Virus record (IMG/VR): IMGVR_UViG_3300027659_000132
Span: 1 to 31,732 of that record
From: a virus
Direction: 5' to 3' (one strand)
Length of the DNA: 31,732 nucleotides
The notes under the pieces are model-generated. The model made no database searches and was not told where the DNA came from. It saw only the letters and a list, made by a program, of their open reading frames with translations. Positions within the stretch are counted from its first letter, which is position 1. The number at the start of each line of letters is the position of its first letter. The position numbers and the translations under genes are program-made. Below are positions 4,682 through 16,771 of the stretch, piece after piece.

Positions 4682-4876
4682 ATGGCTGCGAAACGAACCG
4701 TAGACCCAACAGGTAAAGACCGTTCAGTCAAGATGATTGCGTTGCGTATCACCGCACAGCAACATGAAGTACTCACACAGTTGTGTCAACAGCGTGGCGT
4801 AGGGCGTAGTGCTTTACTTCGCCAACTGCTACAACAGGAGGTGAGGAATGTCCAAGGAACGAGCCAAGGGAACTAG
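4682..4876 (+). CDS. Ribbon-helix-helix (CopG/Arc-like) small DNA-binding protein
   Basis: A 64-residue basic protein. Residues about 13-50 fit a ribbon-helix-helix unit: a short strand (SVKMIALRI) followed by two helices (TAQQHEVLTQLCQQRG and GRSALLRQLLQQEV). Such proteins are dimeric repressors or nicking accessory factors. It overlaps the next gene by 29 bases in another frame, and the AGGAGG-like sequence inside its 3' end (about 4834-4841) serves as ribosome-binding site for that gene. It is a candidate ligand for one of the inverted-repeat operators in this window, which is inference. Confidence 0.65.
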   Translation: MAAKRTVDPTGKDRSVKMIALRITAQQHEVLTQLCQQRGVGRSALLRQLLQQEVRNVQGTSQGN

Positions 4877-7310: not shown

Positions 7311-7494
7311 TGACTTCCCGAATGGTAACTGTGTCCACCCGTGCGGGCATATGGGTATGTGTGACCATTGCGGGACAGTCGGTAAAGCGGTGCAGTTGTG
7401 GACAGACTTTGAGATAGAGGGCTGTGAATGTCTCTGTCATAAAGCAAGAAAACTATTCGTTGGCGTAGCAAAGAAAACTAAGGGGCGCAAGTGA
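7297..7494 (+). CDS. Small Cys/His-rich putative zinc protein
   Basis: A 65-residue protein starting MTTTDDFPNGNCVHPCGHM. Cys12, Cys16, Cys22, Cys25, Cys43, Cys45 and Cys47, with His14, His18, His24 and His48, provide enough ligands for two zinc sites. The tail is strongly basic (KKTKGRK). The start at 7297 is preferred over 7246 because it places the frame just inside the end of the preceding short gene. The stop overlaps the WhiB GTG (AAGTGAG), so it may be co-translated with WhiB. Nucleic-acid binding is inferred. Confidence 0.65.
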   Translation: MTTTDDFPNGNCVHPCGHMGMCDHCGTVGKAVQLWTDFEIEGCECLCHKARKLFVGVAKKTKGRK

Positions 7495-7751
7495 GAGAAT
7501 TAGAGTTGGGTTGGTATGACCGTGCGCGATGCAAAGGTATGGACGCCAAGATATTTTTCCCTGATATACCTGCTGGGTTGAACCATCGCGGTGTGTTTGA
7601 TGAGGCGGTGAAGGTGTGCGGGCTGTGCTCGGTGCGCCGTGAGTGCTTGGCTCTTGCTATGCAGGCGGAGACAACTGACATTCGCAGGTTCGGTGTGTTC
7701 GGTGGCAAGACTCCACGTCAGCGCGATGCTTTGGGTAAAAATAAAAAGTAG
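7491..7751 (+). CDS. WhiB-family transcriptional regulator
   Basis: An 86-residue protein with the four iron-sulfur-cluster cysteines in the WhiB arrangement: Cys14, then Cys43-x2-Cys46 and Cys52 (VCGLCSVRREC). It also has the FFP motif (22-24) and the GVFGG turn (68-72), followed by a basic KTPRQRD tail that would touch DNA. Family members bind the principal sigma factor and adjust transcription or redox responses. Some phage WhiB proteins block host WhiB and alter septation. Its presence is the strongest pointer to an actinobacterial host. It is the last plus-strand gene before the convergent terminator. Confidence 0.9.
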   Translation: MRELELGWYDRARCKGMDAKIFFPDIPAGLNHRGVFDEAVKVCGLCSVRRECLALAMQAETTDIRRFGVFGGKTPRQRDALGKNKK

Positions 7752-7811: not shown

Positions 7812-8138
7812 TCAGACTTGGGTGTAGTACAACTTCCACCCGTCACATGCGTCACTGTTCATGGCGCAATGCTTTGCTGTTTGCTCGGACTGAAAGCGCC
7901 GTGCCTTCGCCATGTCTAATGACCAACAGTTGTCTGTTGTCTTGGCGGTGGCGAGGTGTCTGCCTGTCCAGTATTTATCTATAGACGGGTGCTTACCGCA
8001 ACGCTTGACCACCCACGTGTATGTCGGTAGTGGCTGTGTCGTTGGGTGATTCTTCCTGTCGTAAGGCTTGACCCTGCGGAACAAGGTGAGTGCAATGTCA
8101 ATGGTTGGTCGTTGCTGTATCCACTTACTTAGTTTCAT
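7812..8138 (-). CDS. Hypothetical protein, last gene of the minus-strand block
   Basis: A 108-residue basic protein beginning MKLSKWIQQRPTIDIAL, with many Lys, Arg, Thr and Trp and three Cys. A GAGGAG ribosome-binding site lies seven bases before the ATG, inside the preceding 53-residue gene, which it overlaps by 14 bases. The stop falls 17 bases before the convergent hairpin. The central part, with a Trp-Val-Val strand and Lys/Arg clusters (about 40-75), may be nucleic-acid binding. No family is recognised. Confidence 0.65.
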   Translation of the reverse strand: MKLSKWIQQRPTIDIALTLFRRVKPYDRKNHPTTQPLPTYTWVVKRCGKHPSIDKYWTGRHLATAKTTDNCWSLDMAKARRFQSEQTAKHCAMNSDACDGWKLYYTQV

Positions 8139-8286
8139 TGGCGGTCTCCTCGTACTGTAGCCAGTCGTTGATTAGTACTGTCCAACCCCAACGCTTGCGT
8201 AGTATCTCTACAACCTCGCGTGCTGTTGGTTCGTTGGTGATGTTGTGGTGTACCCATTCTTCCAAGATGTCTGATGTAGTTCTCAT
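8125..8286 (-). CDS. Small hypothetical protein
   Basis: A 53-residue frame beginning MRTTSDILEEWVHHNITNEP. Its ATG overlaps the stop of the upstream gene (ATGA) and its 3' end overlaps the next gene by 14 bases and contains that gene's GAGGAG ribosome-binding site. Predicted mostly helical, with several Trp (EEWVHH, KRWGWTV, NDWLQYEE). It fills the only gap in this otherwise back-to-back operon, which is the main reason to accept it. The function is unknown. Confidence 0.65.
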   Translation of the reverse strand: MRTTSDILEEWVHHNITNEPTAREVVEILRKRWGWTVLINDWLQYEETANETK

Positions 8287-8681
8287 TCGGATACCGCATC
8301 TTGTAGTTCTTCAATCACTTCAATGATTTGCTGTTGGGTTAGGTGCTTGCTCATCTCATGGACAAGCCAGTCCACAGGGTCATGTAATCTACGTGCATTG
8401 CCATCTATCAGTTGGTACTGTGTGTCGCCCATCGGTATGCGGTTCATTGCTTGCAAGCCCAACGTGAAGCGGTCAGTCAGTTTGTCTGTGCCTTCAAGGT
8501 ATTCACCGTCACCTTGATAGTCGCTTTCCCATTGGTCATAACTCTCGTTGTAGACCGTGCCATAGGGGAAGAAACCTTCTTCGTTCTCGGTGTCGTGATA
8601 CCACAAGTCAAGACTGCTGTCGTAAGTCACGATGTAATGGTGCTGTCTGACTGTCTCTAAGTTCAGGTCATAGATTTTCAT
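8283..8681 (-). CDS. Hypothetical acidic protein
   Basis: A 132-residue, strongly acidic, Tyr/Asp-rich protein (DLWYHDTENEEGFFPYG; SDYQGDGEYLEG) with a C-terminal helix ending in LQDAVSE. The ATG overlaps the upstream gene by 14 bases and has an AAGGAG ribosome-binding site. High negative charge and aromatic content are reminiscent of small phage proteins that mimic DNA surfaces or inhibit host enzymes, but there is no motif to prove this. The family is unknown. Confidence 0.65.
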   Translation of the reverse strand: MKIYDLNLETVRQHHYIVTYDSSLDLWYHDTENEEGFFPYGTVYNESYDQWESDYQGDGEYLEGTDKLTDRFTLGLQAMNRIPMGDTQYQLIDGNARRLHDPVDWLVHEMSKHLTQQQIIEVIEELQDAVSE

Positions 8682-8859
8682 TGGCTGTCTCCTTGTCCTT
8701 CATGCCCTGCTCAATAAGAAACTGGGCTTGGTTTAGTTGCTCTAACATTCCGAAGGTTTGCATTGGGCGTAGTTCGCCCTGTCGCACTCCTTCTGTGAGT
8801 AGAAATCTCAAGTCCTCAAATCCTCGGATAATTTCTGCGCGGATAGTTTCCTTAGTCAT
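8668..8859 (-). CDS. Small helical hypothetical protein
   Basis: A 63-residue all-helical protein starting MTKETIRAEIIRGFEDLRF. Its ATG overlaps the stop of the gene before it (ATGA), and AAAGGAG lies at the proper distance inside that gene. No Cys, no membrane segment, no recognised family. Gln/Glu-rich helices about 35-55 could mediate oligomerisation. Confidence 0.6.
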   Translation of the reverse strand: MTKETIRAEIIRGFEDLRFLLTEGVRQGELRPMQTFGMLEQLNQAQFLIEQGMKDKETANENL

Positions 8860-9026
8860 TGCTGTTCTCCTTTGTATGTTGCTTCTAGTTCCCGTTCATG
8901 CCAGCCGATAACCTGAACACCGTCAGTGTGGATATAGTCCATTGCACATCCGTTGTCGTGGGTATCTGTGTCTATCGCTAGTACGAGAGTTACCTCTACT
9001 AGTTTGGTTGTCTCTAATGCTTTCAT
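8856..9026 (-). CDS. Small hypothetical protein
   Basis: A 56-residue protein starting MKALETTKLVEVTLVLAI. The ATG at 9026 is preferred over 9086 because AAGGAGAACAGCA, the recurring leader of this block, lies just upstream and the longer version would run across it. Alternating strands (VEVTLVLAIDTD; VQVIGWHERELEA) suggest a small beta-sheet fold. The C-terminal YKGEQQ is encoded by the ribosome-binding site of the next gene. Confidence 0.65.
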   Translation of the reverse strand: MKALETTKLVEVTLVLAIDTDTHDNGCAMDYIHTDGVQVIGWHERELEATYKGEQQ

Positions 9027-9057
9027 TGCTGTTCTCCTTCGTTGTTGGTTGTTTGTT

Positions 9058-9441
9058 TTATATTGAAATATGTATCTCAAACTCATCTTTGTTCATGTAA
9101 TCAAACACATCTCTTGCCACATCCTCGGCATCGTCTTCGTCCTCTGCTTCAACACAAACTCTGCTGATAACCGTGACCAAGAACTCATCATCGTCATCAA
9201 ACTCCTCTGTGATTTCGCACTGAACAAACTGCTCTGTAAGCGCATCATCTTTGTATAGGTTCCACGCTTTCCAACAGTCCTCGTGTAGTTCCTCTTCAAC
9301 TAGTTCAACATCATCAAACTCAAAGTCTCTTGCGGTGTACCAATCGCCATAGAACTCTTGTTTCATTCGGGCTACTGCTTCCACTTCTGACTTCGCGTGT
9401 ATCTTTTCTAAGTTCCAAACCGAAACCGAGTACTTGTTCAT
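9058..9441 (-). CDS. Hypothetical very acidic protein
   Basis: A 127-residue protein starting MNKYSVSVWNLEKIHAKSE. The ATG at 9441 overlaps the upstream stop (ATGA) and has an AAGGGAGAA ribosome-binding site, so it is preferred over 9477. The first 30 residues form a strand-helix unit; the rest is extremely rich in Asp and Glu, with two blocks (DFEFDDVELVEEELHED and EDEDDAEDVARD). The charge pattern would suit a DNA-mimic or an antirestriction-type protein, which is speculation. Confidence 0.65.
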   Translation of the reverse strand: MNKYSVSVWNLEKIHAKSEVEAVARMKQEFYGDWYTARDFEFDDVELVEEELHEDCWKAWNLYKDDALTEQFVQCEITEEFDDDDEFLVTVISRVCVEAEDEDDAEDVARDVFDYMNKDEFEIHISI

Positions 9442-9773
9442 TCTTCTTCTCCCTTTATGTAGCCGAGCGGATACCATTCGTCACCACATTCAGCACAGGT
9501 ATAGCCATCGGGGTATCCCTCTTCGTATGCTGGTTGTGATGATGCTCCTTTGTTTCTTGGTTCGTTAGCGCATTGAAAACAAACCAAACCACCCTCATCT
9601 AAAGAGATACCAATTGCCCTTTCTTCTGTTGGACAGTCTGAATATGGGTTCTCATTACCTTCGTTGTCTTCACACCCACACCAGTTGAATATCGCAACCT
9701 GTGTTTCGTGTGTTAGGTCAGCCATTTCGCCCCAACTATATGAGCGTTGGCTTGGGTCTATGTCTTGCTTCAT
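9438..9773 (-). CDS. Zinc-ribbon-like Cys-rich protein
   Basis: A 111-residue acidic protein with seven cysteines in knuckle-like pairs: Cys32-x-Cys34, Cys47, Cys65-x2-Cys68 (VCFQCAN) and Cys93-x2-Cys96 (YTCAECGDEWYPLG). The last pair followed by an aromatic turn is typical of zinc ribbons. The recurring leader with AAGGAGAATAGCA precedes the ATG. Its C-terminal KGEEE is encoded by the next gene's ribosome-binding site. Role unknown; RNA-polymerase or DNA contact is plausible. Confidence 0.65.
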   Translation of the reverse strand: MKQDIDPSQRSYSWGEMADLTHETQVAIFNWCGCEDNEGNENPYSDCPTEERAIGISLDEGGLVCFQCANEPRNKGASSQPAYEEGYPDGYTCAECGDEWYPLGYIKGEEE

Positions 9774-9794
9774 TGCTATTCTCCTTCGTTGTTG

Positions 9795-9998
9795 TTACTT
9801 GAACTCAACTGTTTTGATAGTTGAGAGTGGAATTGAAAAGTCGTACATACAATCTTTCACTAGGTGCATTGCGTTGAAATCAACTGTCTCGTTGTTCAGC
9901 GACATCACCGTTACTTCTTTGTATACGCTTTGGTCTGTTCTAATTTCTACAAAGTCACCTGTCTCGCAGGCTTGTTTGAGTATTCCCTTTACTGACAT
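9795..9998 (-). CDS. Small beta-rich hypothetical protein, first gene of its operon
   Basis: A 67-residue protein starting MSVKGILKQACETGDFVEI. Alternating strands (DFVEIRT, YKEVTVMSLN, TVDFNAMHLV, IPLSTIKTVEF) fit a small SH3- or Sm-like barrel. The ATG is preceded by the leader with AAGGAGAACGGGA, and a consensus promoter lies 31 bases upstream. It heads the run of minus-strand genes down to the hairpin at 7748-7795. No named family is recognised. Confidence 0.65.
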   Translation of the reverse strand: MSVKGILKQACETGDFVEIRTDQSVYKEVTVMSLNNETVDFNAMHLVKDCMYDFSIPLSTIKTVEFK

Positions 9999-10028
9999 TC
10001 CCGTTCTCCTTCGTTGTTGTTATGTTCT

Positions 10029-10057
10029 ACCGTAGTACGAATACTACAGGATGTCAA
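10029..10057 (-). promoter_or_regulatory. Sigma70-like promoter with palindromic operator in the spacer
   Basis: On the minus strand TTGACA (10057-10052) is followed after exactly 17 bases by TACGGT (10034-10029). The spacer and -10 hold a perfect inverted repeat, GTAGTA (10032-10037), CGAA, TACTAC (10042-10047). A protein bound here would block polymerase. It would drive the operon that starts at 9998. Confidence 0.7.
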
Positions 10058-10076
10058 GGACTGTCCTCTCTATCGT

Positions 10077-10116
10077 GGGTGTCGGGGACTTGAACCCCGA
10101 TGTCTGCCAGTCACCC
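10077..10116 (-). other. tRNA T-arm-like nested hairpin in a non-coding gap
   Basis: Read on the minus strand, CGGGG-TTCAAGT-CCCCG forms a stem-loop identical in layout to a tRNA T-arm (5-6 bp stem, 7-base TTCAAnn loop). It is enclosed by a second stem, GGGTG (minus, 10116-10112) with CACCC (10081-10077), with an 11-base bulge on one side. No 5' acceptor, D-arm or proper anticodon arm can be folded, so it is not a complete tRNA. It lies just after the stop of the 10124-10279 gene and before the promoter at 10057. Confidence 0.55.
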
Positions 10117-10123
10117 GACCTAC

Positions 10124-10279
10124 TTAGCGCAGGACTGTTGCTGTATGGCTGTATGCAGCGTCCTGTGATGTGCAGGTATTTATTCCCCAAGAAGGGTGTT
10201 GGCGCAAAGTCTCTAGTGTTTTTTCCACTAGTTTGTTGCACTCCTCACAATCCTCGTGTCTAGTTGTAATCCTTTTCAT
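10124..10279 (-). CDS. Small hypothetical protein with a CxxC
   Basis: A 51-residue protein starting MKRITTRHEDCEECNKLVEK. The ATG at 10279 is preferred over 10354 because AAAGGGAGAAGG lies upstream and the longer frame overlaps the previous gene. Cys11, Cys14 and the nearby His8 could bind metal; a basic/acidic helix follows. The C-terminal third looks unstructured. The upstream leader is a 19-base exact copy of that before the 10569 gene. Function unknown. Confidence 0.5.
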   Translation of the reverse strand: MKRITTRHEDCEECNKLVEKTLETLRQHPSWGINTCTSQDAAYSHTATVLR

Positions 10280-10291
10280 GTCACCCCCTTC

Positions 10292-10310
10292 TCCCTTTCG
10301 TGTTGCTTGT
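10292..10310 (-). repeat. Leader repeat, copy 1
   Basis: A 19-base block (TCCCTTTCGTGTTGCTTGT on the plus strand, ACAAGCAACACGAAAGGGA when transcribed) found again at 10576-10594. Each copy sits just before a minus-strand start codon and supplies the ribosome-binding site. The ATG distance differs (13 against 7 bases), so the duplication is of the leader rather than of the gene. Confidence 0.75.
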
Positions 10311-10311
10311 C

Positions 10312-10569
10312 TTATGACAAGTTCTGTTTCATCTTCTTGTGTCCATATCGGCAAGCACTTTTATACGAGCCTTCGCTGAACTCAATCTGATATTCCATGT
10401 CATCCAAGAAGTCGGCTATCGCTTCATCCGAGATGTCAATTTCAACAGTGCTTTTCAGAACTCTGACCACCCTGATAACCGCACCACTTCTATCAACATG
10501 AGTGTCACCTTCGTAAAGTCTGCTCATATGGTCAGACATTGCGCTTGATGGCATTTTCATCCGCTTCAT
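10312..10569 (-). CDS. Hypothetical protein
   Basis: An 85-residue protein starting MKRMKMPSSAMSDHMSRLY. It has a basic N-terminus, a central strand-rich section (AVIRVVRVLKSTVEIDIS) and an acidic helix (DEAIADFLDDMEYQIEF). A perfect-looking promoter and the CACGAAAGGG leader lie directly upstream, giving a confident start. No family is recognised. It heads a short unit with the 10124-10279 gene. Confidence 0.65.
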   Translation of the reverse strand: MKRMKMPSSAMSDHMSRLYEGDTHVDRSGAVIRVVRVLKSTVEIDISDEAIADFLDDMEYQIEFSEGSYKSACRYGHKKMKQNLS

Positions 10570-10575
10570 ATTGTT

Positions 10576-10594
10576 TCCCTTTCGTGTTGCTTGT
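10576..10594 (-). repeat. Leader repeat, copy 2
   Basis: Exact 19-base match to 10292-10310. It lies between the -10 at 10605-10600 and the start codon at 10569, so it forms most of this gene's 5' untranslated region and includes the AAAGGGA ribosome-binding site. Confidence 0.75.
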
Positions 10595-10599
10595 TACTA

Positions 10600-10628
10600 A
10601 GTGTATCACACATCATTGTCCCTGTCAA
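10600..10628 (-). promoter_or_regulatory. Consensus sigma70-like promoter
   Basis: TTGACA (10628-10623) and TACACT (10605-10600) on the minus strand are separated by exactly 17 bases. The start codon at 10569 lies 30 bases past the -10 with the CACGAAAGGG leader between them. No inverted repeat is seen in the spacer, but two SOS-box-like palindromes lie 54-87 bases upstream of the -35. Confidence 0.75.
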
Positions 10629-10681
10629 GGATTATCTTTGTGAAATATGTCATACCCTCAAACCCTTACCTGTCATCAAAC

Positions 10682-10695
10682 CGAACACCTGTTCG
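10682..10695. promoter_or_regulatory. SOS-box-like palindrome
   Basis: CGAACA-CC-TGTTCG: perfect 6-bp arms. It matches the Gram-positive/actinobacterial LexA box CGAAC-RNRY-GTTCG except for one central base. It lies between the end of the 10720-10911 gene and the promoter at 10628. Confidence 0.5.
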
Positions 10696-10696
10696 C

Positions 10697-10710
10697 CAAA
10701 CATATGTTCG
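10697..10710. promoter_or_regulatory. SOS-box-like palindrome
   Basis: CAAACATATGTTCG differs from the CGAAC-RNRY-GTTCG pattern by one outer base. It is separated from the previous palindrome by one base. The pair sits directly after the stop of the 10720-10911 gene, so weak hairpin termination is an alternative role. Confidence 0.5.
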
Positions 10711-10719
10711 CCTGATATA

Positions 10720-10911
10720 TCACGAGATGAGAACTCCTGTCGCTTCGTGCCATGCTTCTCCTTCGCCTGACATTGGCTTGACTTTGTAGTCCAAGTTGCC
10801 GTATCTGCTTCGGGCGTCAAGTATCTGCACCGAGAAGGTGAGTTGTGTGCCTGACACTCTGAGCGTGGCTGTCTTGCCGATGTTCTGTGCTAGTTCTTGT
10901 GCTGTTGCCAT
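10720..10911 (-). CDS. Small beta-rich hypothetical protein
   Basis: A 63-residue protein starting MATAQELAQNIGKTATLRV. Strands about 14-32 (TATLRVSGTQLTFSVQILDA) and 36-47 (YGNLDYKVKPM) suggest a small barrel such as an SH3- or OB-like fold. The ATG overlaps the upstream stop (TAATG). It is the last gene of the 11625 operon. No family recognised. Confidence 0.65.
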   Translation of the reverse strand: MATAQELAQNIGKTATLRVSGTQLTFSVQILDARSRYGNLDYKVKPMSGEGEAWHEATGVLIS

Positions 10912-11165
10912 TAGTTGCCTGCCTTCGCTTCTTCTCGTTCTTCTTCTAGTTCTTCTTGAACTTCGCGGTCTAGTTTTCGTACTCTCCGCATTTGCTCTAC
11001 TGCTTGCCCTGTCTTGTCCATGAGGTGGTCGTATGCCCGTTCGTATGCGGTCTCTATGTCCTCTCTCTCGGTCAGTTCAATGACATCTTCTAACTCTGTG
11101 AGTACCCGTTGCAGGTCTCGCTTCAGGTTGTCTAGTTCTGTTTCGTATCGGTCTTTGGTGTTCAT
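10911..11165 (-). CDS. Coiled-coil hypothetical protein
   Basis: An 84-residue, very charged protein starting MNTKDRYETELDNLKRDLQ. Nearly the whole length fits a long coiled coil with heptad-spaced Leu, Val and Ile (LDNLKRDLQRVLTELEDVIEL). The start overlaps the upstream stop (ATGA). It may bridge partners or dimerise a membrane-bound neighbour; the preceding gene encodes a single-span membrane protein. Function unknown. Confidence 0.65.
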   Translation of the reverse strand: MNTKDRYETELDNLKRDLQRVLTELEDVIELTEREDIETAYERAYDHLMDKTGQAVEQMRRVRKLDREVQEELEEEREEAKAGN

Positions 11166-11332
11166 TGGTTGCCCCTTTTCTTTCGTTCGTTGTCTAGTTT
11201 GTATTGGGTTTCTTGTATGTGTCGGTTTCTTGTGCGCTCTAGGTCAATTCCGAGCCATACACAGAGCCAGTGTGAGCCGATTACGGCTAAGAAGAATAAG
11301 CCTTCTTTGTTGTCGGTGATGAAGTTCCTCAT
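11162..11332 (-). CDS. Small single-span membrane protein
   Basis: A 56-residue protein starting MRNFITDNKEGLFFLAVIG. The ATG at 11332 overlaps the stop of the upstream gene (ATGA), which settles the start against the longer frame from 11575. A membrane segment (about residues 11-28, GLFFLAVIGSHWLCVWLGI) is followed by a basic helical tail. It could be an early membrane-acting phage protein, for example in exclusion. No family recognised. Confidence 0.65.
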   Translation of the reverse strand: MRNFITDNKEGLFFLAVIGSHWLCVWLGIDLERTRNRHIQETQYKLDNERKKRGNQ

Positions 11333-11625
11333 GCTGTGACCTCGCCTGCATAGACCGCCACTGCCCCGTCCGTGATGGTTGAAGTAATCCAGTGACCGCC
11401 CCAATTTGCCCGTGTTAGGTATTCCTGCACGGCTTCGGCGTAGTTCTCGGCTGGCTCTAGTCCATGATTCCATGAAACTATGATTCGTTGCGGGTCTTTC
11501 CCGTGAGCGTTCCCCTCGTAACGCTGTACCGATATTCTTGTGCTTCGGTGGTTGGTTGGCTGTAGGTATTTGCACCTAAGCACTACCCTTCCGTTCGTTG
11601 TTGTCTTGCTTGCTTGCTGTTCCAT
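11329..11625 (-). CDS. Hypothetical protein, first gene of its operon
   Basis: A 98-residue protein starting MEQQASKTTTNGRVVLRCK. Ribosome-binding site AAGGGGAAAC lies just upstream. The N-terminal half is basic with strands (RVVLRCKYLQ; TRISVQRYEG), followed by IIVSWNHGLEPAENYAEA and a C-terminal strand GAVAVYAGEVTA. A mixed alpha/beta fold is likely. No family recognised. A promoter with inverted repeats precedes it. Confidence 0.6.
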   Translation of the reverse strand: MEQQASKTTTNGRVVLRCKYLQPTNHRSTRISVQRYEGNAHGKDPQRIIVSWNHGLEPAENYAEAVQEYLTRANWGGHWITSTITDGAVAVYAGEVTA

Positions 11626-11653
11626 AGTTTCCCCTTGTTGTAGTTATGTCTTA

Positions 11654-11692
11654 CTGTAATACAGCCTAGTGACTGTATCGTGCCCTAGTCAA
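11654..11692 (-). promoter_or_regulatory. Promoter with overlapping inverted repeats
   Basis: On the minus strand TTGACT (11692-11687), 18 bases, TAGGCT (11668-11663). Inverted half-sites overlap the -10 and the spacer: ATACAG (11659-11664), 8 bases, CTGTAT (11673-11678), plus a third half-site forming the 11-base palindrome CTGTA-A-TACAG (11654-11664). The 8-base spacing equals that at 3017-3038, although the half-site sequences differ. Confidence 0.55.
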
Positions 11693-11742
11693 GCCTTGAC
11701 GCTTGTGCCTACCTTCGTAGGGCTAGGGCTACCCCGCAGGGT

Positions 11743-11976
11743 TTACCATTCAGTTTCTGTCAGTGTTTCCCATTCTTCGCCATTCCATTTCTTGGTGGCG
11801 ATTACGGCGACATAGTGTCCGTGCTTATTCTGTCGCCCTAGTAGGTAGTTCAGGCTTTCGGCGTACGATAGAGCGCCGTCTTCGGTTGTTGCCCTGATTA
11901 TGTTCATGACCGAAAAGTTACCGCTCAGTAGTTCTACCCTGTAGGGGTGGCTTTCGGTTGTTAGTGTTGTTTCCAA
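11743..11976 (-). CDS. Hypothetical protein, TTG start
   Basis: A 77-residue protein. No ATG suits; TTG at 11976 has an AAAGGGA ribosome-binding site seven bases upstream within the recurring CAACGAAAGGG leader, which makes it the best start. The sequence RVELLSGNFSVMNIIRATTEDGA followed by NYLLGRQNKHGHYVAVIATK looks like a small alpha/beta protein. A short GC hairpin (ACCC-TGC-GGGGT, minus strand) begins at the stop codon and may slow transcription. No family recognised. Confidence 0.55.
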   Translation of the reverse strand: METTLTTESHPYRVELLSGNFSVMNIIRATTEDGALSYAESLNYLLGRQNKHGHYVAVIATKKWNGEEWETLTETEW

Positions 11977-12065
11977 TGTTGTCCCTTTCGTTGTGTTGTG
12001 TGTCGGCTTTCGCCTTGTCCCTAGTCCCGATTGAACGGCACGGCTTGACCGCTAGGGGAAACTGA

Positions 12066-12239
12066 CTAGAGTCCGCAAGCCTTAAGGAATTTATCCCCAT
12101 CAAATCTTTCGTTATCTTTCCACAATTCTATTGCCAATTCTCTGGCAACTCGCGCAAGCGAGACTTTATCGCCCTCGCTTTCGCTTTCGTTTAAGTCTGC
12201 GAAAACTCGCGCGATTAGTTCGTAGTCTTTTCTTGTCAT
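12066..12239 (-). CDS. Small helical hypothetical protein
   Basis: A 57-residue protein starting MTRKDYELIARVFADLNES. The start at 12239 is chosen over 12395 because CAACGAAAGGGAAAC lies just upstream and the extension would cross a hairpin. The phrase DYELIARVFADL and a later ARELAIELWKDNERFDGDKF are common in short actinophage proteins of unknown role, and the sequence is all helical. Probably a conserved phage family, not named. Confidence 0.65.
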   Translation of the reverse strand: MTRKDYELIARVFADLNESESEGDKVSLARVARELAIELWKDNERFDGDKFLKACGL

Positions 12240-12275
12240 TGTTTTGTTTCCCTTTCGTTGTTCTGACCTCGTCAG

Positions 12276-12313
12276 TAGTGGCGATACCACTAGACCCCCG
12301 AAGGGGTTTCGGT
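12276..12313 (-). promoter_or_regulatory. Two consecutive inverted repeats between minus-strand genes
   Basis: Directly after the stop of the 12314-12502 gene, AGAC and GTCT enclose CCCC-TTC-GGGG, a compact GC hairpin that could terminate transcription although no U tract follows. Next comes TAGTGG (12276-12281), CGATA, CCACTA (12287-12292), a perfect 6-bp inverted repeat with operator-like geometry about 36 bases before the next start codon. No convincing -35/-10 pair is seen. Confidence 0.45.
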
Positions 12314-12502
12314 CTACTTGCCCCAAGTCACCTCTGAGTCCCTCACCGCTACGATTCCGCCAGTCATTGGGTGGTTCTCGTTCATAATGGTGCAAATTGT
12401 GACACCCTTCTCGTCTAGTCCCATGTAAGAAAGTTCAATACACCTACGAACTATCAAACCTTTCGCCCAGCCGTTCTTCTTGATTATTCCCATTTGTGCC
12501 AT
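12314..12502 (-). CDS. Hypothetical protein, first minus-strand gene of the block
   Basis: A 62-residue protein starting MAQMGIIKKNGWAKGLIVRR. The start at 12502 has AGAGGGA upstream; the longer frame from 12598 would run through the promoter. The strands GLIVRRCIELSYMGLDEKGVT and GGIVAVRDSEVTW suggest a small beta fold. It lies next to the long non-coding region and would be the first product made leftward from it. No family recognised. Confidence 0.55.
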   Translation of the reverse strand: MAQMGIIKKNGWAKGLIVRRCIELSYMGLDEKGVTICTIMNENHPMTGGIVAVRDSEVTWGK

Positions 12503-12554
12503 GTTCTTGTGTCCCTCTTTCTTGTAAGTGTTCGGGGTAAATCCCGATATGAAT

Positions 12555-12583
12555 ACATTATCGCCATCAGTAAGACAGTTCAA
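12555..12583 (-). promoter_or_regulatory. Leftward promoter at the edge of the non-coding region
   Basis: On the minus strand TTGAAC (12583-12578) and TAATGT (12560-12555) are spaced by exactly 17 bases, 52 bases before the start codon at 12502. The spacer begins TGTCTTAC, an octamer that also lies inside the spacer of the capsid-unit promoter (27373-27380). Confidence 0.65.
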
Positions 12584-12722
12584 ACACCAAGCAAGCACCT
12601 ATCACTACCAAGCCCTGTAAAACCCAATAGCCATAAGGGAAATAAAGTGTAACCAAATTGCAATACAAAACAGACAGCAAAAGCGACAGCCCGAAAGAAA
12701 AAGTTAGGCACACCTAACAAAA

Positions 12723-12736
12723 CGAACAGATGTTCG
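12723..12736. promoter_or_regulatory. SOS-box-like palindrome, full match
   Basis: CGAACAGATGTTCG matches CGAAC-RNRY-GTTCG at every position. It is followed by CAAGC, as is the next copy, giving a longer direct repeat. Confidence 0.6.
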
Positions 12737-12762
12737 CAAGCCGAGCCGAGACAACACACAAC

Positions 12763-12776
12763 CGAACAAGTGTTCG
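12763..12776. promoter_or_regulatory. SOS-box-like palindrome, full match
   Basis: CGAACAAGTGTTCG, full match to the pattern, 40 bases (about four helical turns) from the previous copy and again followed by CAAGC. Confidence 0.6.
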
Positions 12777-12802
12777 CAAGCGACACAACACAGCGCCGAG
12801 GG

Positions 12803-12816
12803 AGAACAAGTGTTCG
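12803..12816. promoter_or_regulatory. SOS-box-like palindrome, one mismatch
   Basis: AGAACAAGTGTTCG differs only in the first base. It begins exactly 40 bases after the previous copy, continuing the 40-base spacing. Confidence 0.6.
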
Positions 12817-12827
12817 CTCTGCCACAA

Positions 12828-12857
12828 GTTACCAGTCGGTAAGTTACTCCTCGGTAA
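12828..12857. repeat. 15-bp tandem repeat with internal symmetry
   Basis: GTTACCAGTCGGTAA (12828-12842) is followed immediately by GTTACTCCTCGGTAA (12843-12857), 12 of 15 identical. Each unit is itself an imperfect inverted repeat (GTTAC / GGTAA). It lies 11 bases after the third palindrome and resembles an iteron pair or dyad operator. Confidence 0.6.
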
Positions 12858-12975
12858 CATAGGCGAGCCGTCGTGCTAACTACAGCAAGCGGGGCACATA
12901 CTTTTTCAAGCGGAAGGGCTGGGGTATGGGGTAGTGCTTGCCGTATTTGTGGTGGAATAGTCGCTCTGCGTGATG

Positions 12976-12989
12976 CGAACAAGTGTTCG
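12976..12989. promoter_or_regulatory. SOS-box-like palindrome, full match
   Basis: CGAACAAGTGTTCG, identical in sequence to the copy at 12763-12776, 173 bases from the start of the third copy, on the G/T-rich side of the compositional switch. Confidence 0.6.
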
Positions 12990-13607
12990 TGTGCTGGGCA
13001 GATATCACGACTGGGCATATGCCGAGGGCGCGCGCGTAGGGATAACTATATATGCGTTCTGTATGCATGCACATTTGTGGCTCAGAATTTGGTGCGGGAT
13101 TTAGTGCTAATTAGTGTGGGTGGGTGTGTGGTTTTGGTTGTTGTTTCTGTTGGCAAGTGTTATACAACGGCGCATGTTGCAGAAGAAAAAAACGGAAAAA
13201 AAAGAAGCACCGAACGAGGGTGTCAGACGTTAGCAAACATGCTGCACCTTCTTTGCAAGCAAGCCCGCTAGGGCGCGCTAGATGGTTTCATCTGCTGTTG
13301 GCTGCAATGCCGAACAGCATGAGAGTGCCTCCCCCACAGTTCCCGTCCCCACGGAAGGTCGCCGTAGCATATTTCAGCCGACACCTTGATTCGATGAGAT
13401 GACGTTCATCACGCTGCTTACCTACTTCAAAGAATAGGTATCAACCCAGGTTCCCCTGTTTACGCCCCGCACCTTGCAACAGGTGTACAGCCATGAGTCT
13501 TGCCAGTTGTGTCGCCAAGTATACACACCCGCCACCTTGTTGCAACTATGTGTTACAGTTTCCTTTAGGTACCAAATACATCTCTAGAGACAAAGGAAAC
13601 AAACATT

Positions 13608-14797: not shown

Positions 14798-16771
14798 ATG
14801 GCACAGGGAATTCGTAAGGTTCCAGCAAACGACAAAGCACGTTTCTGGCAAGCAATCCACTCAGGACACACAACGTTAGACGCATGCCGCATCGCAGGTG
14901 TACACCCCAACACAGGTTACAACTGGATAAAAAAATCTAAAGTAGCCAAAGCAAACGCAGATGTTGCAGCAATCGAACTCACCAAACACACCCGCAGACA
15001 GGGTGGCGTCCAATGGGAAGACGCAATGGACCTTGCTGAAGCAGCAGACCTACCACCAGCGATACCATTAGACCGTCTCACCCCAGAAGCACAACGAGGA
15101 TTAGACGACTTTCAATTCTTCCGTGAACATTACCTAGGACGAGTCTCCGCACCGTGGCAAGTTGAAGCCGCACTAGAAATCGTTATGTCACTAGACAGCG
15201 AAGAAAAAGAATTTATCTGTCTCAACGTCCCACCTGGCGCTGGTAAGTCAACCCTGTTCCATGATGTTGCGGTATGGGCAATCGTAAAGAACCGTGCCAT
15301 CCGTGTACTCATCGGCTCCGCCAACCAAAACCTAGCCAAAATGTACTCCCGCCGAATCCGCGAAACCCTAGAACGCCCCAACCCTATGCTTGCTGACACA
15401 GAACTAGTTAAGAAGGGTTTGGCAGTAGATGCACTGGGCTGCCTGTCAATCGACTACGGGAGATTCAAACCAGCAGACAAAGGTGCGCTATGGCGTGCTG
15501 AAGAATTCATTGTTGAACAACTAGACGGCAACGGGCTAGACAACAAAGAACCAACCGTACGTGCATATGGTATCGACGCAGAGTTCATTGGACACCGTGC
15601 AGACCTCTGCCTCTTTGACGACGTAGCCTCTACCGAAAACGCACGCGAATCCACAGCCCGTGACAAACTCCTAGAACGCTGGGACTCAATGGCAGAAGCA
15701 CGTGTAGACCCAGGCGGCACCTTGGTTGTAGTTGGACAAAGGCTTGGCTCAGGCGACCTGTATGCCCACTGTCTGAACAAAGTAACGTATGACCTAGACG
15801 AAGACGATTATGATGGCGAAGATGTCACAACTTCCAATGTGCTTGAGAAGCCTGAACCCACCAAGAAGCAAAAATATAAGCATATTATTTACAAGGCGTA
15901 CTACGAAGACTTGGATACTGGTCCTAAGTCCAGGCGTCTTGACTCGCCTGCTTACCCTGATGGACCACTACTTGACCCCAAAAGGCTCTCGTGGAAAGAC
16001 CTCTCGTATCTCCGTTCTTCAAACAATGAACGGTTCCGTGTCATTTACCAACAAGAAGACCTCGCAGACGAAACATATCTTGTTGATAGAACATGGATTA
16101 CAGGCGGACTAGGACAAGACGGCGTACTCTACCAAGGCTGCATAGACAACGAACGTCTACCAGAACACATCCCACCAGGATTACGCGCCCCAGTTATCTC
16201 CATCATCAGCATTGACCCATCCCCAACCCAATTCTGGGGACTCATCTGGATGCTCTACCAACCAGAACACAACCTGTATCACATCGTAGACATCCAAAGA
16301 ACCAAACTCACAGCAGAAAACCTCCTCGGATACAACACAACCGATGGCTCATACACAGGAATACTTGAAGAATGGTGCGAACGCGCTAACTATCTTGGCT
16401 ATCCCGTGTCCCACATTATCGTAGAAATCAACGCAGCCCAAAGATTCCTACTCCAACACGACTTTGTTCGCAAATGGACAGCCCTATGGGGTGTAAACAT
16501 CCTGCCCCACACCACAGCCCGCAACAAATTAGACCAAAACCTAGGAATTGAAGCAATCATCCCAACACTTGTACGCTCAGGTTCACTGCGGCTACCCACA
16601 ATGCGCGGAAACTGGAAGACACTTGCCCTAGTAGATGAACTTTGCAAATGGACCCGCGACAAAAAGAACGGAACCGACCTAGCAATGGCGTTATGGTTCG
16701 CATGTCTGCATGCACCGAACCTCACAACGATAAAAAGACCGCCAAGACAGTGGCGACCCTCATGGATATAA
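14798..16771 (+). CDS. terL: Terminase large subunit with N-terminal helix-turn-helix
   Basis: A 657-residue packaging motor. The ATPase half shows Walker A PPGAGKST (145-152) and Walker B LCLFDD (270-275), and the C-terminal nuclease half shows IISIDPSPTQFW with its first Asp, IIVEINAAQRF and the closing KNGTDLAMALWFA with Asp. The first about 50 residues (DKARFWQAIHSG; TTLDACRIAGVHPNTGYNWI) form a transposase-like helix-turn-helix, normally the job of the small subunit, and no separate small terminase gene is seen here. The enzyme would dock on the portal encoded next. Its start lies just past a strong terminator. Confidence 0.93.
   Translation: MAQGIRKVPANDKARFWQAIHSGHTTLDACRIAGVHPNTGYNWIKKSKVAKANADVAAIELTKHTRRQGGVQWEDAMDLAEAADLPPAIPLDRLTPEAQRGLDDFQFFREHYLGRVSAPWQVEAALEIVMSLDSEEKEFICLNVPPGAGKSTLFHDVAVWAIVKNRAIRVLIGSANQNLAKMYSRRIRETLERPNPMLADTELVKKGLAVDALGCLSIDYGRFKPADKGALWRAEEFIVEQLDGNGLDNKEPTVRAYGIDAEFIGHRADLCLFDDVASTENARESTARDKLLERWDSMAEARVDPGGTLVVVGQRLGSGDLYAHCLNKVTYDLDEDDYDGEDVTTSNVLEKPEPTKKQKYKHIIYKAYYEDLDTGPKSRRLDSPAYPDGPLLDPKRLSWKDLSYLRSSNNERFRVIYQQEDLADETYLVDRTWITGGLGQDGVLYQGCIDNERLPEHIPPGLRAPVISIISIDPSPTQFWGLIWMLYQPEHNLYHIVDIQRTKLTAENLLGYNTTDGSYTGILEEWCERANYLGYPVSHIIVEINAAQRFLLQHDFVRKWTALWGVNILPHTTARNKLDQNLGIEAIIPTLVRSGSLRLPTMRGNWKTLALVDELCKWTRDKKNGTDLAMALWFACLHAPNLTTIKRPPRQWRPSWI

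Follow-up and report, generated by a model that had tools for sequence, protein, structure and literature searches.

SOS-box palindromes in the control DNA of a tailed actinophage suggest docking of host LexA

Members of a family of tailed freshwater actinophages carry palindromes in the control DNA upstream of their terminase gene that match the SOS box of plausible hosts. We consider it probable that these palindromes are docking sites for host LexA, which would couple a leftward block of small genes to the SOS state of the cell. The analysis starts from a viral contig of 31.7 kb (31,732 nucleotides), here called the window; its near-complete, circularly permuted relative G003 has a length of 38 kb. 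The identity of the motif as an actinobacterial SOS box is well supported by sequence comparison. LexA binding, repression rather than activation, the responding promoter and the outcome, be it deferred or SOS-triggered lysis, are inferred.

The preliminary description of this DNA had placed four palindromes, three exact copies and a fourth with one mismatch, in a non-coding cluster. A pattern scan confirms their positions; from start to start the steps are 40, 40 and 173 bases (Table 1). The cluster is located between the first leftward gene (start at ~12598) and the rightward late-gene block. Its non-coding character is borne out by the alignment of relatives, with large indels and no conserved reading frame. 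The window holds four exact CGAACRNNYGTTCG sites, three in the cluster (12723, 12763, 12976) and one at 10682, while 400 dinucleotide shuffles give an expectation of 0.015 and a maximum of 1. With up to two mismatches allowed, 19 strand-matches are found against a shuffle mean of 4.5. The promoter scan agrees with the earlier statement that no visible promoter lies at the four cluster boxes. A common helical face for the sites, as proposed, is not tenable: a 40-bp step makes 3.81 helical turns of 10.5 bp each, and in relatives the spacing is 41 + 40. A further pair of sites, at 10682 and 10697, had been overlooked.

Table 1. Features of the window discussed in the text (coordinates in nucleotides of the window).
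Feature	Coordinates	Strand or match	Remark
Ribbon-helix-helix (RHH) protein	4682..4876	+	Only other clear DNA-binding protein in genes searched
WhiB-like protein	7491..7751	+	Whib 3.3e-14; found across family
Leftward block, small genes of unknown function	7812..12598	-	Likely control target
Sigma-70-type promoter TTGACA-17-TACACT of leftward block	10600..10628	-	Promoter scan
CRP-like palindrome TATGACATATTTCACA	10639..10654	-	Between pair and promoter; TGTGACAYATTTCACA in most relatives
SOS-box palindrome of upstream pair CGAACACCTGTTCG	10682..10695	exact	Kept in L220-L222
Pair partner CAAACATATGTTCG	10697..10710		15 bp from 10682 box
Possible -10 TACACT for first leftward genes	12646..12651	-	Inferred from likeness to 10.6-kb promoter
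Second palindrome type GTTAGGCACACCTAAC	12703..12718		4 bp from box 1; 28 phages, 25 contexts
SOS-box palindrome 1 CGAACAGATGTTCG	12723..12736	exact	Kept with substitutions in L007, L008, L012
SOS-box palindrome 2 CGAACAAGTGTTCG	12763..12776	exact	With flanks CCGAACAAGTGTTCGC, equal to lexA-upstream box of Acidimicrobiia genome G099 (L572)
SOS-box palindrome 3 AGAACAAGTGTTCG	12803..12816	one mismatch	
Third palindrome type, tandem GTTACCAGTCGGTAA-GTTACTCCTCGGTAAC	12828..12858		
SOS-box palindrome 4 CGAACAAGTGTTCG	12976..12989	exact	Of the four, kept most widely in close relatives
Strongly conserved, possibly structured leader RNA	13168..13498	+	~330 non-coding bases before rightward late genes
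Terminase large subunit (terL)	14798..16771	+	Anchor for finding relatives

The upstream pair belongs to a module with the order pair, GGTAAGGGTTTGAGG, CRP-like TGTGACAYATTTCACA and TTGACA-17-TACACT. The spacing from pair to promoter is fixed in relatives although the downstream genes differ between phages. The partner box keeps its CATATG core in relatives and appears in a symmetric form, CAAACATATGTTTG, in L237. The palindrome at 10639..10654 resembles a CRP site; the CRP reading of TGTGAC-N4-GTCACA found no confirmation in the candidate host genomes examined. The pair is located ~80-95 bp from the likely transcription start and does not overlap the promoter. This distance is unusual for simple repression, and the location before the promoter rather than on it is the weak point of the LexA reading. 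The boxes might instead tune a promoter activated by a CRP-type protein, support a loop between the two clusters or titrate LexA.

Terminase searches yielded several hundred contigs, which were reduced to 117 non-redundant upstream regions with the window included. CGAAC-N4-GTTCG occurs there at 59 sites in 29 of the 117 regions, compared to a mean of 0.38 for permuted arms, and ranks first when palindromes are tallied without bias over independent contexts. The motif thus recurs in related phages, with turnover of the individual sites. In the relatives read at length, all exact sites lie 0.7-5.1 kb upstream of terL and none elsewhere; they keep to control DNA and lack the genome-wide spread of stoperator or SPBRE arrays. 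Alignment of ten close relatives reveals the 12.7-13.0 kb region as a mosaic with gains and losses of palindromes, next to a highly conserved segment at 13168-13498. A separate DNA-only scan of viral contigs for paired boxes returned members of the terminase family in 24 of its loci. Other viral contigs (L085, L096, L100, L149, L167, L168, L182, L186, L203) carry five to seven LexA-like palindromes at steps of 15-40 bp, and the low-GC contigs L108 and L116 contain such a palindrome about once per kilobase.

For comparison with hosts, 16 candidate genomes, mostly of freshwater Actinomycetota, were picked through a rhodopsin pattern. Exact CGAACANNTGTTCG is present in 15 of them with one to seven copies; the reversed control gives none. 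With gene names taken from translations rather than from profile search, the motif is found upstream of lexA (L501, L510), recA (L509, L511, L518) and dnaE2 (L502, L505, L512), and it also precedes imuA-like, ruvC and UvrD-like helicase genes. This placement before lexA, recA and other SOS genes identifies it as the SOS box of plausible hosts, and the early assignment to the LexA consensus stands in freshwater Actinomycetota. The LexA regulon of Streptomyces venezuelae has the consensus tCGAAC-N4-GNNCGa, with the same core as the phage boxes (PMC9380542). The outer t/a pair of that host regulon is lacking in the phage boxes; it is a preference rather than a requirement of the 16-bp consensus. 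In the sampled host boxes, T/A occupies 75% of the outer positions versus 7% in phage boxes. Avoidance of TCGA does not account for this difference, as phages not avoiding TCGA show the same flanks. Judging by the outer bases, the phage boxes could bind LexA less strongly, or they could serve another protein. Of 30 Acidimicrobiia loci, 12 have a box with the phage-type (G/C) outer bases no more than 400 bp from the start of recA, lexA or imuA; among these is a lexA box, CCGAACAAGTGTTCGC, identical to the second box of the window.

Neither a search of 20 phage records for the LexA domain nor tblastn detected a phage LexA. The identity with host SOS boxes together with the lack of a recognisable phage LexA makes a tie to host SOS control the best reading, and that part of the preliminary description is supported. 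Its other suggestion, a phage initiator that uses the same palindrome, finds no support, as no gene tracks the sites. It is established in general that LexA occupies SOS boxes and that RecA drives its cleavage (PMC9380542, PMC4551915). This phage has four to six such boxes in its non-coding control DNA, as a fixed pair before the leftward sigma-70 promoter at 10.6 kb and as a cluster of variable make-up in the divergent region at 12.7-13.0 kb. In the undamaged cell, dimers of host LexA bound there would keep the small leftward genes repressed or adjust their expression. Upon DNA damage, RecA-driven cleavage of LexA would free the leftward block, and the phage programme would thereby track the DNA-damage state of its host.

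An alternative that we regard as rather unlikely is a phage-encoded regulator with a LexA-like operator, in an immunity or operator array like that of SPbeta (MrpR) or the mycobacteriophage stoperators. The outer bases unlike those of most host boxes would fit this alternative, but phage-type boxes are real lexA and recA boxes in Acidimicrobiia. Repeated-site phage repressors are known (PMC10516654, PMC9283540), and many viral contigs contain regular palindrome arrays with steps of 15, 21, 22, 26 or 40 bp; in the genes searched here, however, no repressor was recognised, and no phage gene family co-occurs with the presence of boxes. The RHH protein is conserved throughout the family and could be proposed as the binder, but it is not favoured, given that phages with different palindrome sets encode an RHH protein that is 100% identical.

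The boxes could also serve as decoys that after replication titrate host LexA and so switch on SOS repair functions used by the phage, which we regard as improbable. The phage encodes RecE, an annealing protein, RusA and SSB with no polymerase recognised, and its four exact boxes in 32 kb equal the four in the 1.3 Mb of Ca. Planktophila versatilis. Boxes clear of promoters, and free to vary in number and position within the 12.7-13.0 kb cluster, are what such a sponge would allow; the fixed promoter spacing of the 10.6-kb pair is needless for it.

Docking of host LexA may be part of a broader pattern. Exact parS, TGTTTCACGTGAAACA, is found upstream of terL in five phages (L244, L246, L266, L296, L298) and in 6 of the 16 candidate host genomes, while no ParB-domain protein was found in the phage records searched and the window itself has no parS. 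Several relatives contain paired DnaA boxes, TTGTCCACAGGTTGTGGATA, 100-150 bp past the last box. Since some relatives carry such sites, more than one host protein could dock in the region. Sequence identity speaks for LexA and ParB, and for DnaA such docking is plausible. A more far-reaching proposal, which we offer as speculative, is a mosaic platform (LexA, ParB/parS, DnaA, perhaps a CRP-type protein) swapped among close relatives, by which actinophages without their own repressor, integrase and partition genes would persist as an episome and time lysis by host state.

The same parS sites and DnaA boxes would also suit a replication origin or partition-like site in which the boxes are iterons or sites for host replication proteins, as would the GC-skew minimum, which 7 of the 12 relatives examined have at 0.7-2.8 kb upstream of terL. 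We give this reading little probability. The region of the window contains no DnaA box, gene direction switches at the same place and confounds the skew signal, a similar pair lies 2 kb off at a promoter, and the box is known as an operator of transcription. No replication initiator was recognised among the genes searched.

The closest parallel to docking of host LexA is the Bacillus phage GIL01 (Betatectivirus), in which host LexA acts as prophage repressor (PMC4551915, PMC6182141). Both phages have host LexA boxes with a CGAAC-N4-GTTCG core in their own control region. GIL01 lives as a plasmid, and in the present phage no integrase was recognised among the genes searched. GIL01 is a small tectivirus that uses phage co-factors (gp1, gp7, a LexA homologue) and has its main box at +17 of promoter P1. 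Unlike GIL01, the present phage is a 38-kb tailed actinophage with boxes off promoters and no LexA homologue found. Similar to the present phage, CtrA-controlled phages of Alphaproteobacteria, for which 'lytic deferment' is described, are lytic-looking and have clusters of host-regulator sites in few non-coding regions (PMC9437464). CtrA is a cell-cycle regulator (PMC9437464), whereas here the putative regulator would be LexA, which responds to DNA damage. As the same source summarises, the virulent Bacillus phage phi29 combines Spo0A sites with trapping by a host segregation protein (PMC9437464), which resembles those relatives that carry exact parS plus regulator-like palindromes; phi29 differs in host, regulator and phage, and the window itself lacks parS. 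SPbeta with MrpR/SPBRE (PMC10516654) and mycobacteriophages with stoperators (PMC9283540) also have repeated operator-like sites in intergenic DNA. SPBRE and stoperators are bound by phage-encoded repressors; here none was found among the genes searched, and the sequence equals host SOS boxes.

The comparison suggests that use of host LexA, known in a few viruses, is, as far as found, new for this large family. The present case stands apart in the group of hosts, the type of phage and the palindrome mosaic, and in that no co-repressor was recognised. Freshwater Actinomycetota are among the commonest bacteria of lakes, and their phages are mostly derived from metagenomes and obscure in lifestyle. 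If host LexA indeed docks at these sites, DNA damage, for example by sunlight, would trigger the lytic programme directly, and phages that look lytic would actually be postponing lysis. The comparative set forms a collection of natural operator variants for finding the host protein that acts.

The cluster has further palindromes as neighbours. The GTTAGGCACACCTAAC type, which is not above chance in candidate host genomes, is followed at 12703..12718 by TTTTTC and may alternatively function as a leftward hairpin or terminator. In L226, L229, L234 and L236, the third type is found next to a lone SOS-like box at the 10.6-kb promoter. That all palindromes of the region are host boxes finds no support, as GTTAGG-N4-CCTAAC, TGAGAA-N3-TTCTCA and AACAGTC-N3-GACTGTT occur at or near chance in candidate hosts; some palindromes there are thus no host box. 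A role as RNA hairpins was rejected, as the arm sequence itself, beyond its complementarity, is conserved over many contexts. The palindrome TGTTAGGCNNNCCTAACA is found upstream of terL in 28 relatives and equals the SOS box in family-wide frequency. The possible -10 element at 12646..12651 was not called by the promoter scan.

The consensus fold of the leader RNA at 13168-13498 has an energy of -70.8 kcal/mol and includes a compensatory hairpin, CACCTTGCAACAGGTG / CCACATGCAACCGTGG. Four pairs are changed on both sides, with a covariation term of only -0.14. Rfam gave no match in the control region or the leader.

The WhiB-like gene points to an actinobacterial host, and isolated phages of Ca. 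Nanopelagicales contain whiB and are of similar size (PMC10202952). Close relatives among annotated phages were not found, and a terminase profile scan of bacterial genomes returned neither host nor prophage. Besides the recombination genes named above (the exonuclease being RecE-like), the window encodes portal and major capsid protein; integrase, CI-type repressor and polymerase were not recognised among the genes searched in the window. The part of G003 that lies outside the window contains, judged from translations, structural-looking genes, and no integrase or CI-type repressor was recognised in it. At 10075-10123 (-) a T-arm and the acceptor-like stem that closes it, GGGTG...CGGGGTTCAAGTCCCCGACACCCAC, form a tRNA-like element with neither D nor anticodon arm; ARAGORN called no tRNA there. 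The same shape with varying sequence is present in the distant relatives L244, L259, L280, L285, L296 and L178. As a guide to the host through tRNA or attP likeness the element was discarded, since it varies among phages and copies no single host tRNA.

The window is also devoid of GATC, AGCT, GGCC and CCGG, of which 67-106 each are expected from trinucleotide content. Which palindromic 4-mers are absent varies among the relatives (G003-G033), with as many as seven missing from G028 and from G030, and no non-palindromic 4-mer is missing. This pattern looks like extreme restriction-site avoidance.
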